Of a DNA stretch of 64,000 nt, positions 58,903 through 64,000 are shown in pieces. Source of the stretch: Rhodanobacter sp. (GTDB lineage Bacteria > Pseudomonadota > Gammaproteobacteria > Xanthomonadales > Rhodanobacteraceae); assembly GCA_004298045.1 (NCBI GenBank), contig SCRM01000016.1:124001-188000 (forward strand), written 5' to 3'. Numbering within the stretch: position 1 is the first letter of the stretch; each line of letters starts with the position of its first letter. Both the position numbers and the translations under genes were made by a program. The notes beneath the pieces are model-generated. The model saw only the letters and a program-made list of their open reading frames with translations, was not told where the DNA came from and did no database searches.

Positions 58903-59481
58903 TCAGGCCGGCGTGGCGAACCATTCCGCGTGCTGTGCGCGCAGGCGCTGCCATTCGAGCTTGAGCCACGGCGTGTAGCGCTCGGGGTTGGCGGCAATTT
59001 CCTGGTCGAGCATGTCCGGCGCCACGTAGCGCAGCGCGGCGATTTCGCTGGCGTTGACGTCGGGCGCCGCGTCGCTGCGCCCGGCAAACACGTGGCACAG
59101 CTCGTGTTCGGAGCCGGCATCGCCGTAGCTCGCCTGGTAGGTGAACTCGAACAGATGCGTGAGCTCGCAATCGAAGCCAAGCTCTTCGGCAAGACGGCGG
59201 TGGATCGCATCCTTGAGCCGCTCGCCGCGGCGCGGATGGCTGCAGCAGGTATTGGCCCAGTAACCCGGCCACAGGCGCTTGCCCTCGGCGCGCTGTTGCA
59301 GCAACACCTCGCCGTTCGGGTTGAACACGAACAGGGAAAACGCGCGGTGCAAGGTGCCGTGGCCGTCGTGCGCACTGGCCTTGTCGAGATACCCGATTTC
59401 GCGATCCTTCGCGTCGACCAGGATCAGCGGCTCATCGTCGAAGGAAACCACTTCGTCGCGACGTGGCTGCTGCTCACTCAT
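58903..59481 (-). CDS. idi: Isopentenyl-diphosphate delta-isomerase, type I
   Basis: A 192-residue Nudix-fold isomerase that interconverts IPP and DMAPP. The catalytic Cys is in 'WANTCCSHPRRGE' (Cys80) and the catalytic Glu in 'GSEHELCHVF' (Glu127), with the metal-binding His/Glu residues around 'HRAFSLFVFN'. The type I enzyme needs Mg/Mn and no flavin. It is the last gene of the mevalonate operon and begins four bases after the fused HMGR-kinase stop, so it is co-translated. An isomerase is essential in mevalonate-pathway organisms, because the pathway yields only IPP, which supports the operon as the organism's isoprenoid supply. Confidence 0.93.
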   Translation of the reverse strand: MSEQQPRRDEVVSFDDEPLILVDAKDREIGYLDKASAHDGHGTLHRAFSLFVFNPNGEVLLQQRAEGKRLWPGYWANTCCSHPRRGERLKDAIHRRLAEELGFDCELTHLFEFTYQASYGDAGSEHELCHVFAGRSDAAPDVNASEIAALRYVAPDMLDQEIAANPERYTPWLKLEWQRLRAQHAEWFATPA

Positions 59482-59485
59482 TGCC

Positions 59486-61756
59486 TTACCCCAGATCCAC
59501 GGCCATCGCCTGATAGCCCGCGTCGCGCATCGCGGCGATCACGCGATCGCGGTTCTCCGGGCACAGTGCCACGATCGACCCGCCACCACCACCACCGGTG
59601 AGCTTGGCGCCCAGCGCACCGTTTTCGCGCGCGAGCTGCACCAGCTCCTCCAGCTCGCGGCTGGACACGCGCAGTGCGTTGAGCAGGCCGTGGCACACGT
59701 TCATCAGGTCGCCAAGCTGCTGCAGGTCATGCCCTTCGAGCGCCTGCGCGCCTTGCAGCGCCAGCCGGTCGATCTGCTCAAAGATGCCTTCGTACAGCGC
59801 CGGGTTGCGCATCCACGCACTGCGCACGTTGCCCACCGTGCGCGCGGTGAGGCTCTCGCGCCCGCTGATGCCGATCACCAGCGGCACCGAGCCGCCGAGT
59901 TTCAGCTCGCGAATATCCGGCTTGGCACCGGCGGCATCGCGCTGATAGAGCACGGTCTTGCCGAACGTGGCCACCGTATTGTCCACGCCGGAAGGTGAGC
60001 CGTGCGCCACGCGCTCGCACTGGTAGGCCAGCGCGTTGACCTCGTCATCGGTGAGGCCCAGCTTGAAATGCCGATCCAGCGCGCGCACGACGGCGACCGC
60101 GAGCGCGGCGGAACCGCCCAGGCCCATCGCGCGCGGCACGTTGGGAAACACTTCGATATGCATCGGCCGCTCGATCAGGCCGAGGCGGTCGAAGATCAGC
60201 CCGAGCGATTTCTGGATCGAATCGCGGCGCGCGGGATCGCGACTGAAATGGCACTTCACGCCCCAGCGCGCGATCAGCATTTCGACGCCGCCGGACGGCA
60301 TGTCCTTCACGCTGGCGTGGATCGCCAACGGAATCGGCGCGGCAATGGCGTGGCTGCCGTACACCACCGCGTGCTCGCCCAACAAAATCACCTTGCCGTA
60401 CGCGGACACGCCATCGGCCGGTACTGGCGTGTCGGCCGGCACGATGATGCCGGCGCGACCGTGGCGCAGGCCTTCGATGATCTCCAGTGCCTTGTGCACC
60501 TTGATCTCGCCGCCTTCGACCAGTTGATCCACCACCGCATCGAAAATGTCGGCACCCGCCCCGGCGGCAATCGCCACGCTGCGTGCATGCAGCGTCATGT
60601 GGCCCTGCTGGATGCCCTCGGTAGAAAGGGCGCGCAAGGCGGAGAAGTTCTGCGCCAGCCCCACTGCGCCCATGATTTCTGCCAGCTCGGTCGCGCTCTT
60701 GACGCCGAGCAGGCGCAGGTTCAAGCCGACGGTGGCGTTCGACAGCAGCGAACCGCCGACGATGCCGACCTTCATCGGCATGTCCAGCTCGCCGACCAGT
60801 TCGCCGCTCGCGCTCTTGTACCAGCGCGTCAGCGCGGTATAGCGCCCGCCGCGCGCGGCGTACGCGTGCGCAGCCGCCTCGATCGAGCGCCAGTCGTTGC
60901 CGGTGGCCAGCGCCACCGCGTCCACGCCATTCATGATGCCTTTGTTGTGGGTGGCGGCGCGGTACGGATCGAGGCTGGCAAACTCGTTGGCGAGAATCAC
61001 GCCGTCGCGCACGTCCTCGCCGGTGAACGCCTTGCTGGCCAGCGCGTCGACCGGGATCACGCAGCGCGCGCGCACCAACGCGCGGTCGGCCAGGTTGGAC
61101 AGGATGCGCAGAAACACACGTCCGCTGGTGAGTTTTTCCACCAGCGACGCCACGCCTTCGCACATGGTGTTGACCAGGTTCGCGCCCATCGCGTCGCGGG
61201 TATCGACCAGCAGGTGCAGCACCACCATGTCGCCGCCTTCGGCGCGCGCCAGGAGCTGCACCTCGATGTCCTTCGCGCCACCACCGCGCGCCACCATCTG
61301 CGGGTGCAAGCTGTTGGCGAGGTTGAGCAATTCTTCCTTGTGTTGCAGCAACGCGGCCTTGGCCTGCACCGGGTTCGGCACATCCACCACCTGTACCTGG
61401 CCGATCAGCACCGGCTCGGTGCTTTCGACGTGGAAGCCACCGGTGCCGCGCACCACCTTCGCCGCCGACGACAGCGCGGCAACGATCGACGGCTCCTCGA
61501 CCACCAGCGGTATCACGTAGTCGCGCTCGTTGACGAGAAAGTTGAGGCCAAGCCCGACCGGCAGGCCCATCACGCCGACCACGTTCTCGATCAGCTTGTC
61601 GGCGCGGCTCACCTTGAGCGTGTGCTCGCCCGAGGCCAGTGCGTGGTAATCCTCCGCGCTGAGCCAGCCGCGCTCGTGGATCATGCGCACGCGCTCAGCC
61701 ACCGAGAGTTTGTAGAAAGCCGGAAACCGCGCCGTCTTCGACGTATCGACACTCAT
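59486..61756 (-). CDS. Fused class II HMG-CoA reductase-mevalonate kinase
   Basis: A 756-residue bifunctional protein. Residues 1 to about 430 are a complete class II HMG-CoA reductase: Glu88 ('VVEEPSIVAALS'), Lys272 ('ATHNKGIMNG'), Asp288 ('ATGNDW') and His386 ('GIQQGHMTLHAR'), each five above the Pseudomonas mevalonii numbers E83, K267, D283, H381. Residues from about 452 are a GHMP-type mevalonate kinase: 'GKVILLGEHAVVYG', the P-loop 'GLGGSAALAVAV', 'HGSPSGVDNTVATFG' and 'KLTGGGGGGS'. The roughly 20-residue linker has no stop, start or frame change. It catalyses two successive steps, HMG-CoA to mevalonate to phosphomevalonate. Class II enzymes can also run in the degradative direction. Confidence 0.92.
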   Translation of the reverse strand: MSVDTSKTARFPAFYKLSVAERVRMIHERGWLSAEDYHALASGEHTLKVSRADKLIENVVGVMGLPVGLGLNFLVNERDYVIPLVVEEPSIVAALSSAAKVVRGTGGFHVESTEPVLIGQVQVVDVPNPVQAKAALLQHKEELLNLANSLHPQMVARGGGAKDIEVQLLARAEGGDMVVLHLLVDTRDAMGANLVNTMCEGVASLVEKLTSGRVFLRILSNLADRALVRARCVIPVDALASKAFTGEDVRDGVILANEFASLDPYRAATHNKGIMNGVDAVALATGNDWRSIEAAAHAYAARGGRYTALTRWYKSASGELVGELDMPMKVGIVGGSLLSNATVGLNLRLLGVKSATELAEIMGAVGLAQNFSALRALSTEGIQQGHMTLHARSVAIAAGAGADIFDAVVDQLVEGGEIKVHKALEIIEGLRHGRAGIIVPADTPVPADGVSAYGKVILLGEHAVVYGSHAIAAPIPLAIHASVKDMPSGGVEMLIARWGVKCHFSRDPARRDSIQKSLGLIFDRLGLIERPMHIEVFPNVPRAMGLGGSAALAVAVVRALDRHFKLGLTDDEVNALAYQCERVAHGSPSGVDNTVATFGKTVLYQRDAAGAKPDIRELKLGGSVPLVIGISGRESLTARTVGNVRSAWMRNPALYEGIFEQIDRLALQGAQALEGHDLQQLGDLMNVCHGLLNALRVSSRELEELVQLARENGALGAKLTGGGGGGSIVALCPENRDRVIAAMRDAGYQAMAVDLG

Positions 61757-61802: not shown

Positions 61803-62912
61803 TCAAGGGAAGTCACCGCCCTGCCCGGCCGCGCCATGCGACGGCGAACCGGAGTGCATGAAGGAGACGTCGCACTGCACGCCCTGCGGATCAACCGCCA
61901 ACCCCTCCGCGTGCAGGCCGGCCGCCATCATAGCGCGGCGCACGCGTTCCAGTTGCGGTGCACCATCGGCCACCACCACGCCGAAATCGCCACCTGCGCC
62001 GCAGGGTTTGAACGCTGCACCCGCGTGTGCGGCAAGCGCAGCCAACTCGCGCTGCGCTGGCGAGAAAATCGCCAGCCCGCTGGCGCGTTCCAGCCGCGAC
62101 AGTGCCGCCGCATACGCTGCCACCAGCGCAACGAAACCTGCCGCATCGCCGTGCAGCGCCGTGGGCGCGGATCCCGCCAATTGACACAATTCGCCCATGC
62201 GTGCCGCGTAATCCGCCGCGTGCGTCTGCCGCCAGGCGGCCAAGTGCGCCAGTTGGCCGGCTGTCGATACCGCCTCCTGCGACCACACGAACAGGCACTG
62301 CGCGCCGGCCGGTGGCCAGCTCGCCGATGACGAAGCCGGTGCGGCACCAGGCATGCCGCGCCGGTACGTCAATGCGCCACCGGCAAGGCTCGCCGCAATG
62401 TCGACGCCGCTGCCGCGCCCGCCTTGCCAGGCGCCATGCCACGCAACCAGGCGCGCCAGCCATGCCGGCGTGGGGGCGAAACCCTGCCCGCTCGCGCGCA
62501 CCAGCGCAGCAGCCAGCGCCACCGTCAACGCCGCGCTCGACCCCAGCCCGAGCTTGCGCCGGCCGGTCGGCGTGGCCGCAAAGAAACCCGAAGTGTCCAG
62601 CGTGAAGTCCAGGCCGCCGCGCGGCGCGAGGCCGATGCCGGCCAGCGCATTCCACACCTGCGTCACCAGGCCGAGGCGAGCCGCATCGGCGACAGTGTTC
62701 CACTCCAGCTTGCCGGCAGCGTCGACGCTGGCCGACGCTGAAGTGATACCAAGGTCTGGCGCAGCTACTTCCACCCCGGCACCATCGGCGCTGTCCAGTA
62801 TCACCCGTGCACGCCGGTTCATCGCCACCACCAGCGCCGGCGCACCATCGAGCACCGCGTAATCGCCGAGCAGCACCAGCTTGCCCGGCGCGCTGGCTTG
62901 GATGCGCGTCAC
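61803..62912 (-). CDS. Phosphomevalonate kinase (GHMP family)
   Basis: A 369-residue GHMP kinase. It begins 'TRIQASAPGKLVLLGDYAVL', the family's strand-loop motif. The ATP-binding P-loop is 'KLGLGSSAALTVALAAALV', followed by 'GRGSGVDIAASLAGG'. 'FKPCGAGGDFGVVVADG' is the third GHMP motif. The length and the position next to mvaD identify it as the kinase that converts phosphomevalonate to diphosphomevalonate (EC 2.7.4.2). The start is a GTG at 62912 overlapping the mvaD stop as GTGA. Without mvaD and the fusion gene one could not exclude another GHMP kinase. Confidence 0.87.
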   Translation of the reverse strand: MTRIQASAPGKLVLLGDYAVLDGAPALVVAMNRRARVILDSADGAGVEVAAPDLGITSASASVDAAGKLEWNTVADAARLGLVTQVWNALAGIGLAPRGGLDFTLDTSGFFAATPTGRRKLGLGSSAALTVALAAALVRASGQGFAPTPAWLARLVAWHGAWQGGRGSGVDIAASLAGGALTYRRGMPGAAPASSSASWPPAGAQCLFVWSQEAVSTAGQLAHLAAWRQTHAADYAARMGELCQLAGSAPTALHGDAAGFVALVAAYAAALSRLERASGLAIFSPAQRELAALAAHAGAAFKPCGAGGDFGVVVADGAPQLERVRRAMMAAGLHAEGLAVDPQGVQCDVSFMHSGSPSHGAAGQGGDFP

Positions 62913-63907
62913 GCGTGCGGCCCCGCCACCAGATGTGCGCCAGCGCCCAGCCCGCACTCGATCACCTCGAGCACGCCCGGCACCTCGCGCAGCGCGGCCG
63001 CCACCGCGGGCAGCGCTTCAGGCAGACACACTGCCTTGACCTGCGGGCCGGCATCCACGGTGAAAAACACCGGCATGCCCTGCCCGCGCAGTTCGCGCAC
63101 CCGGTGCATGCAGGCCACGGTCGCGCCGTTCCAGTAGATCAGCCCCGGCCGCGCCGCGAGCGCCAGCGCGTGCATCTTGAGGCAACTGTGTTCGGACACC
63201 TCGGCCAGCCGTGCGAAATCGTGCGCCGCCACCGCCGCGCGGGCGGCAGCAAGGTCGGCCTCCTGAGTCGCGACCCACGCACCCTGGAACGGCGAGGTCG
63301 CCGCGGTGCGGCGCATGCCAACAGTGGAACTGACGCTTTTCGCCGCCACCGAGGTCACCGCAATCGCCACCGCCAATGGCCACTCCGCACGATCCAGCAA
63401 TGGGTGCGCGATCGAATCGCGCCCGTCTGCGCATTCGCCGCGCGCCCATTCGACAAAGCCGCCAAAGATCGAGCGCGCCGCCGAACCCGAGCAGCGCCGC
63501 GCCAGCGCCGACAATTCGCCGGGCGGCAGCGCCAGCCCCAGCGCTTGCGCGCCGGCGAGCATCAGTGCCGCAAACCCCGACGCCGACGAGGCCAGCCCGG
63601 CGGCGGTGGGAAAGTTGTTGTCGCTCACCACCTCGGCGCGCCAATCCACCCCGGCGCGCGCGCGCAGCAAATCCAGCCCCGCGCCAACCCGCGCCGACTC
63701 GCTAGTCTTGCCATTGAGTTGCACCCCGTCGGCACCGGCCCCGGCGACGAAAGTCACCTGCGTGCGGGTGCGAATGCGGTCCAGCGTGATCGACAGCGAA
63801 CCCACGCACGGCAGGTTCAACGCCTCGTCGCGCTTGCCCCAATATTTGACCAGGGCGATGTTGGGATGGGCTTCGGCGGTGGCCGAACCGGGAGCAATGG
63901 CAGGCAT
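62909..63907 (-). CDS. mvaD: Diphosphomevalonate decarboxylase
   Basis: A 332-residue GHMP-fold decarboxylase that makes IPP from diphosphomevalonate. Diagnostic stretches are 'HPNIALVKYWGKRDEALNLP' at the N-terminus, 'NNFPTAAGLASSASGFAAL' (P-loop and Ser), and 'FFTVDAGPQVKAVC' with the catalytic Asp. It is the first visible gene of the mevalonate operon. The 93 bases before the window edge show no strong promoter, so HMG-CoA synthase could lie further upstream. The ATG at 63907 is chosen over one 24 bases upstream because family members begin just before the 'HPNIALVKYWGK' motif. Confidence 0.92.
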   Translation of the reverse strand: MPAIAPGSATAEAHPNIALVKYWGKRDEALNLPCVGSLSITLDRIRTRTQVTFVAGAGADGVQLNGKTSESARVGAGLDLLRARAGVDWRAEVVSDNNFPTAAGLASSASGFAALMLAGAQALGLALPPGELSALARRCSGSAARSIFGGFVEWARGECADGRDSIAHPLLDRAEWPLAVAIAVTSVAAKSVSSTVGMRRTAATSPFQGAWVATQEADLAAARAAVAAHDFARLAEVSEHSCLKMHALALAARPGLIYWNGATVACMHRVRELRGQGMPVFFTVDAGPQVKAVCLPEALPAVAAALREVPGVLEVIECGLGAGAHLVAGPHA

Positions 63908-64000
63908 GGGCAAGATGGCGTGGCAACGCACGCAAGCATACGCGAGGCCGCCGGCCCGACCAATGGCAAAACGGTGCCCGGACTATGACGCCGCATGCCG

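Follow-up and report, generated by a model that had tools for sequence, protein, structure and literature searches.

The window, a 64,000-nucleotide stretch of a Rhodanobacter sp. contig, contains on its minus strand a gene that joins a class II HMG-CoA reductase (HMGR) to a mevalonate kinase (MK) in a single frame of 756 residues, read from ATG to TAA (Table 1); frame 1 of the plus strand over the same span holds an internal stop. Pfam places HMG-CoA_red at residues 19-391 of the product (E = 1.4e-107), GHMP_kinases_N at 516-599 and GHMP_kinases_C at 671-748, and the NCBIfam models TIGR00532 (HMGR, 403 bits) and TIGR00549 (MK, 235 bits) both score well above their curated cut-offs of 260 and 163. 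The proposal of the initial annotation, that HMGR and MK share one uninterrupted frame, is thus borne out by the reading frame, Pfam and NCBIfam. The fusion gene is the third of four, after a decarboxylase and a probable phosphomevalonate kinase and followed, 4 bases on, by a type 1 isomerase. HMGR, MK, phosphomevalonate kinase, diphosphomevalonate decarboxylase and isopentenyl-diphosphate isomerase are all present, with the phosphomevalonate kinase assigned below its model's cut-off with the help of gene position.

Table 1. Features of the mevalonate operon (positions are those of the 64,000-nucleotide window)
Feature	Position	Strand	Evidence
Type 1 isopentenyl-diphosphate isomerase	58903..59481	minus	NF002995, 178 bits (cut-off 127)
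HMG-CoA reductase / mevalonate kinase fusion, 756 aa	59486..61756	minus	ORF, Pfam, NCBIfam
Mevalonate kinase part, residues 450-756	59489..60409	minus	TIGR00549 and alignments
Linker, residues 432-449	60410..60463	minus	alignment of 45 fusions and model
Class II HMG-CoA reductase part, residues 1-431	60464..61756	minus	alignment to 1qax
GHMP kinase, probable phosphomevalonate kinase	61803..62957	minus	TIGR01220, 67 bits, below cut-off 166; position
Diphosphomevalonate decarboxylase	62909..63931	minus	TIGR01240, 278 bits (cut-off 171)

To characterize the two halves, we compared them with stand-alone enzymes and with one another across an alignment of 45 fusion proteins, comprising the window's own and 44 of the 47 named fusion loci listed; L069 and L073, which are cut by contig ends, L068, which has a long linker, and the family loci L001-L030 stand outside it. 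Residues 8-428 align to 4-423 of the P. mevalonii HMGR chain (1qax, 428 residues) and the kinase part aligns to nearly whole mevalonate kinases, which indicates that neither half is cut. E88, K272, D288 and H386 align with P. mevalonii E83, K267, D283 and H381, which we take to be the catalytic residues of that enzyme, and are invariant in all 45 aligned fusions. Likewise invariant in all 45 are K455, S549, E581 and D592 of the kinase part, presumably the motif 1 lysine and the phosphate-binding, metal and catalytic residues, respectively; we assign the glycine-rich stretch at 721-726 to the same set. The expectation that the catalytic residues of both enzymes are retained is upheld by this invariance. 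Mean identity to the window protein over the 45 sequences is 64% in the reductase part and 54% in the kinase part, and falls to 11% in the linker, which varies in sequence and also in length (7-37 residues, median 18).

An AlphaFold2 model built from the 45 rows (mean pLDDT 88.5, pTM 0.61) contains two confident domains, of which Foldseek matches the first to the P. mevalonii and Delftia HMGRs and the second to mevalonate kinases. Confidence drops below 50 at residues 434-444, within the linker, and the relative placing of the two halves is therefore not fixed by the model. Based on the intact domains and residues, the fusion is predicted to be, very likely, a working bifunctional enzyme, and channelling of mevalonate between its two parts is possible. 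The kinase is attached at the C-terminal end of HMGR, and in class II HMGRs the C-terminal part closes over the active site. Two shorter fusions (L067:6001-8118 and L070:2310-4367) differ at this point: their reductase match runs to query residue 395-399, just past the LHARS motif, and the reductase seems to lack its last stretch ahead of the kinase.

Across the window's family, 44 of 233 genomes carry the fusion, 43 of them (the window's own included) at full length in one frame and the 44th (G176) split over two contigs. One family locus (L021) has match figures identical to those of Dyella monticola (L031), in line with Rhodanobacteraceae as the probable family. Among named genomes we found at least 80 loci, at least 47 of which encode both enzymes in a single frame, truncated in two cases by a contig end; among the 80 listed, HMGR and MK are adjacent and separate in nine (eight Bacillaceae and one Myxococcaceae MAG), and in 24 HMGR has no MK match in the stretch scanned. 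The fused rows are labelled Pseudomonadota, Actinomycetota (cultured Cryobacterium strains among them), Acidobacteriota, Calditrichota and Planctomycetota, with one unassigned. A view of the fusion as unique to the window does not stand against 44 family genomes and at least 47 named loci in five phyla. In an even sample of 398 genomes across the phylum, 2, including the window's own, have it at full length; two candidates per genome were scored there and up to four in the family sample, so that some fusions may have gone uncounted. It is absent from all 14 congeners of the window's genome, and none of 44 matching plasmid records covers 80% of the fusion protein. Some stop-to-stop fusion frames in genus g23 extend to 957-960 aa; the extra length, at first sight a third domain, comes from the upstream kinase gene, which overlaps out of frame.

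A stop or frameshift at the junction, which would have undone the initial annotation, is absent: 43 of the 233 family genomes hold the full-length fusion in an open frame. In comparison with five relatives, substitutions in both halves fall mainly on the third position of codons, a bias that is slight or absent in the linker. Because the full-length fusion recurs without a stop in 43 genomes and both halves show the third-position bias, the 756-residue fusion is no sequencing error. The operon context recurs as well: among the 47 named fusion loci listed, some on short contigs, a relative of the phosphomevalonate kinase lies nearby in 42, of the decarboxylase in 41 and of the isomerase in 36 (on the opposite strand in two). 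The order of the genes varies among fusion loci, as in L053 and L057.

We next turn to dxr and ispG of the MEP route. No dxr match was found in 25 of the 44 fusion genomes vs. 3 of the 189 genomes without the fusion, and those three (81-85% complete) all have ispG; the weak dxr matches of six genus g8 genomes (E from 1e-57 to 1e-76) are counted here as present, and the status of G077, G078, G080, G082, G083, G138, G213 and G214 follows by elimination among the matches listed. No ispG was found in 31 of the 44 fusion genomes, and it is present in all seven fusion-less genomes included in that search. The window's genome (G000) has neither gene; its 14 congeners all have dxr, and 13 have ispG, the exception being G199 (85% complete). 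Since neither dxr nor ispG is detectable in G000, the operon is probably the isoprenoid source of the window's organism and would probably be essential to it. More widely, we infer for many fusion genomes that the MEP route gave way to the mevalonate operon, which would probably make the fusion essential there. Two irregularities were noted. Seven genomes of genus g8 (G068, G070, G072, G074, G075, G079 and G081) without an ispG match encode a Dxr-like protein, whose dxr match is weak in six of them; and G005, which lacks a dxr match, holds an odd-scoring ispG (G005:C14:1665-2702, E = 1.5e-136) that may be contamination of a MAG.

The operon begins with HMG-CoA, and we next consider HMG-CoA synthase. 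A PF01154 match occurs in 36 of the 233 family genomes, 28 of the 44 with the fusion and 8 of the 189 without, and is absent from G000; the same model was positive in 7 of 14 control genomes. With an eight-row synthase profile, each of the six positive controls gave E below 1e-220; two of them (G005 and G075) had supplied rows to it. At E up to 1, this profile found nothing in 14 fusion genomes of 95% completeness or more (G000, G036, G040, G135 and ten of genus g23), nor in G010 (89% complete) or two fusion-less congeners; in G014 it found a synthase fragment. Among the minus-strand ORFs scanned near the G000 operon (eight in one scan and three in another) there is no synthase, and the one match of an archaeal-type synthase model in G000 proved to be FabH.

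Sorting the 44 fusion genomes by both markers gives 27 in which synthase is present and ispG not found, 12 in which ispG is present and synthase not found, one with both (G005), and four in which neither was found: G000 and G036, together with G010 and G014, which are less complete and of which G014 has its synthase fragment. Of the 14 genomes blank with the profile, 12 retain both dxr and ispG, and G000 and G036 have neither; it follows that only G000 and G036 would depend on HMG-CoA from leucine. On the other hand, the pathway may be an ordinary one fed by acetyl-CoA, with a plain bifunctional HMGR-MK and, in G000, a synthase that is non-homologous, very divergent or unassembled. The synthase of 28 fusion genomes, the presence of a thiolase in G000 and the 95.9% completeness of that genome are consistent with this reading. 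We nevertheless regard it as unlikely, though to be taken seriously, since PF01154, TIGR00748, a search with one synthase protein and the eight-row profile are all blank in G000, and PF01154, the protein and the profile are blank also in G036 (99% complete) and in the single-contig genomes G149 and G193.

A source of HMG-CoA other than the synthase is suggested by a gene cluster in G000 (L143), which encodes HMG-CoA lyase, methylcrotonyl-CoA carboxylase alpha subunit, a carboxyltransferase, an enoyl-CoA hydratase and a thiolase; the lyase scores above its cut-off, the alpha subunit is recognized by its MCC-specific BT domain, and the hydratase and the beta subunit are assigned by family and position only. 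In leucine catabolism the carboxylase and the hydratase turn methylcrotonyl-CoA into HMG-CoA. Because no synthase was found in G000 while this cluster for the last steps of leucine breakdown is present, leucine-derived HMG-CoA may feed the fusion there. Such a feed is not a requirement of the fusion, given the synthase in 28 fusion genomes. HMG-CoA lyase is above cut-off in all 44 fusion genomes and also in 14 of 17 fusion-less genomes tested, and no isovaleryl-CoA dehydrogenase was found among the ORFs scanned near the G000 cluster. Comparison with three other genomes matched the lyase, the carboxylase alpha subunit and the hydratase. In the corresponding stretches of G036, G149 and G194 nothing matches the carboxyltransferase and thiolase (L143:13705-15429), indicating that the leucine cluster is arranged otherwise in these genomes. 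In the literature searched, the coverage of which was partial, there is no precedent for a bacterial isoprenoid pathway fed by leucine. The accessible part of a study of Trypanosoma brucei describes leucine catabolism that supplies HMG-CoA to HMGR for sterol synthesis; T. brucei is a eukaryote with an HMG-CoA synthase and separate enzymes, in contrast to the fused enzymes of the window (PMC5993337).

We propose that the HMGR part would reduce HMG-CoA to mevalonate, which the MK part would phosphorylate with ATP to mevalonate 5-phosphate, so that the four operon genes together would lead from HMG-CoA to IPP and DMAPP. The reaction of class II HMGR is reversible; a kinase tethered at its C-terminal end would therefore pull the first step toward synthesis by removing mevalonate at once. 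At the branch point, the fusion would compete with HMG-CoA lyase for HMG-CoA derived from leucine. The domains, residues, operon, two MEP gaps, lack of a detectable synthase and leucine-type cluster of this scheme come from the sequence, and the enzyme activities, the pull and the leucine feed are our reading of them. As one explanation, a bifunctional enzyme, a pull toward synthesis and leucine-derived HMG-CoA seem to us to account for the observations somewhat better than even chance would have it. We advance more tentatively, as an idea that could well be wrong, the stronger version in which some free-living members of the family, having dispensed with HMG-CoA synthase and the MEP pathway alike, would make all their isoprenoids from leucine: HMG-CoA would leak out of leucine breakdown to the fused reductase-kinase, which would outcompete the lyase by locking mevalonate as its phosphate.

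The direction of the reductase could also be the reverse. In a scavenging scheme for the genomes in which no synthase was found, outside mevalonate would be taken up and converted to IPP by way of the kinase part, while the reductase part, running backward, would yield HMG-CoA for the lyase and thus acetoacetate. Among solved structures the reductase part best matches P. mevalonii HMGR, an enzyme of mevalonate breakdown, and the lyase accompanies the fusion in every one of its family genomes; however, G000 and G036 would need outside mevalonate to live, and the lyase is common without the fusion too, so that we consider scavenging distinctly improbable. That an accident of sequencing or assembly joined two neighboring genes, or that one half is dead, has some precedent in the adjacent yet separate HMGR and MK genes of 9 of the 80 named loci listed, but is so improbable as to be set aside, being already contradicted by the third-position bias in both halves, by active-site residues invariant in both, and by the same fusion in 44 family genomes and at least 47 named loci, some from cultured isolates.

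We return to the synthesis-directed bifunctional enzyme and its relation to known systems. The HMGRs of P. mevalonii (1qax) and Delftia (6dio) share ~50% identity with the window protein over nearly the whole chain, with the same catalytic residues and fold, but are stand-alone enzymes, whereas the window HMGR has a kinase after its C-terminal end. Likewise, the mevalonate kinases 2hfs (Leishmania), 6mde (Methanosarcina) and 2x7i, which we take to be a Staphylococcus-like enzyme, share the GHMP motifs of the kinase part (33-34% identity for 2hfs and 6mde in Foldseek alignments) and are stand-alone, in contrast to the C-terminal kinase of the fusion. Natural two-enzyme proteins of isoprenoid synthesis are known. 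According to the accessible part of a 2026 review on isoprenoid synthesis in bacteria, MvaE of Enterococcus faecalis is a natural acetoacetyl-CoA thiolase/HMG-CoA reductase, and so, like the window fusion, a two-enzyme mevalonate-pathway protein that includes HMGR; it joins non-consecutive steps, whereas HMGR and MK are consecutive (PMC13001223). IspDF, which the same text describes as a natural bifunctional enzyme common in bacteria, belongs to the MEP pathway and also joins non-consecutive steps, in contrast to the consecutive mevalonate-pathway steps of the window fusion (PMC13001223). Within that part of the review, which names both proteins, the word "fusion" is used once, for IspDF, and "fused" does not occur (PMC13001223). 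No thiolase domain is among the Pfam matches of the 756 residues, in agreement with the original distinction of this protein from MvaE.

The further suggestion that no HMGR-MK fusion has been described also holds for the literature searched, in which none was found (coverage was partial, with few subscription journals). As far as searched, the novelty lies in two known enzymes in a widespread joining for which we found no description, and in its unusual pathway context. What emerges is a widespread and apparently undescribed bifunctional enzyme, placed where flux through the mevalonate pathway is controlled, that lends itself to tests of channelling and to isoprenoid production. It also makes testable whether a bacterial mevalonate pathway can run without HMG-CoA synthase, on HMG-CoA from leucine, after the MEP route has been given up, and the 44 fusion genomes provide a natural series by their ispG and detectable synthase status.

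To examine the origin of the fusion, we calculated an HMGR tree of 89 rows, gathered by likeness to the fusion, many of them from MAGs, and including 8 of the 29 family loci L002-L030. A single branch (100/99) divides 56 fused from 33 separate rows, a split that one fusion event would explain. Midpoint rooting, applied for drawing, puts the root within the fused set and would turn the separate rows into the derived ones, and L063, L076 and L090 lie on long branches. In the Bacillaceae loci L079-L085 and L088, HMGR and MK are encoded separately, side by side or with an overlap, and a decarboxylase and another GHMP kinase come after them; this arrangement perhaps reflects the order that preceded the fusion, or convergence.
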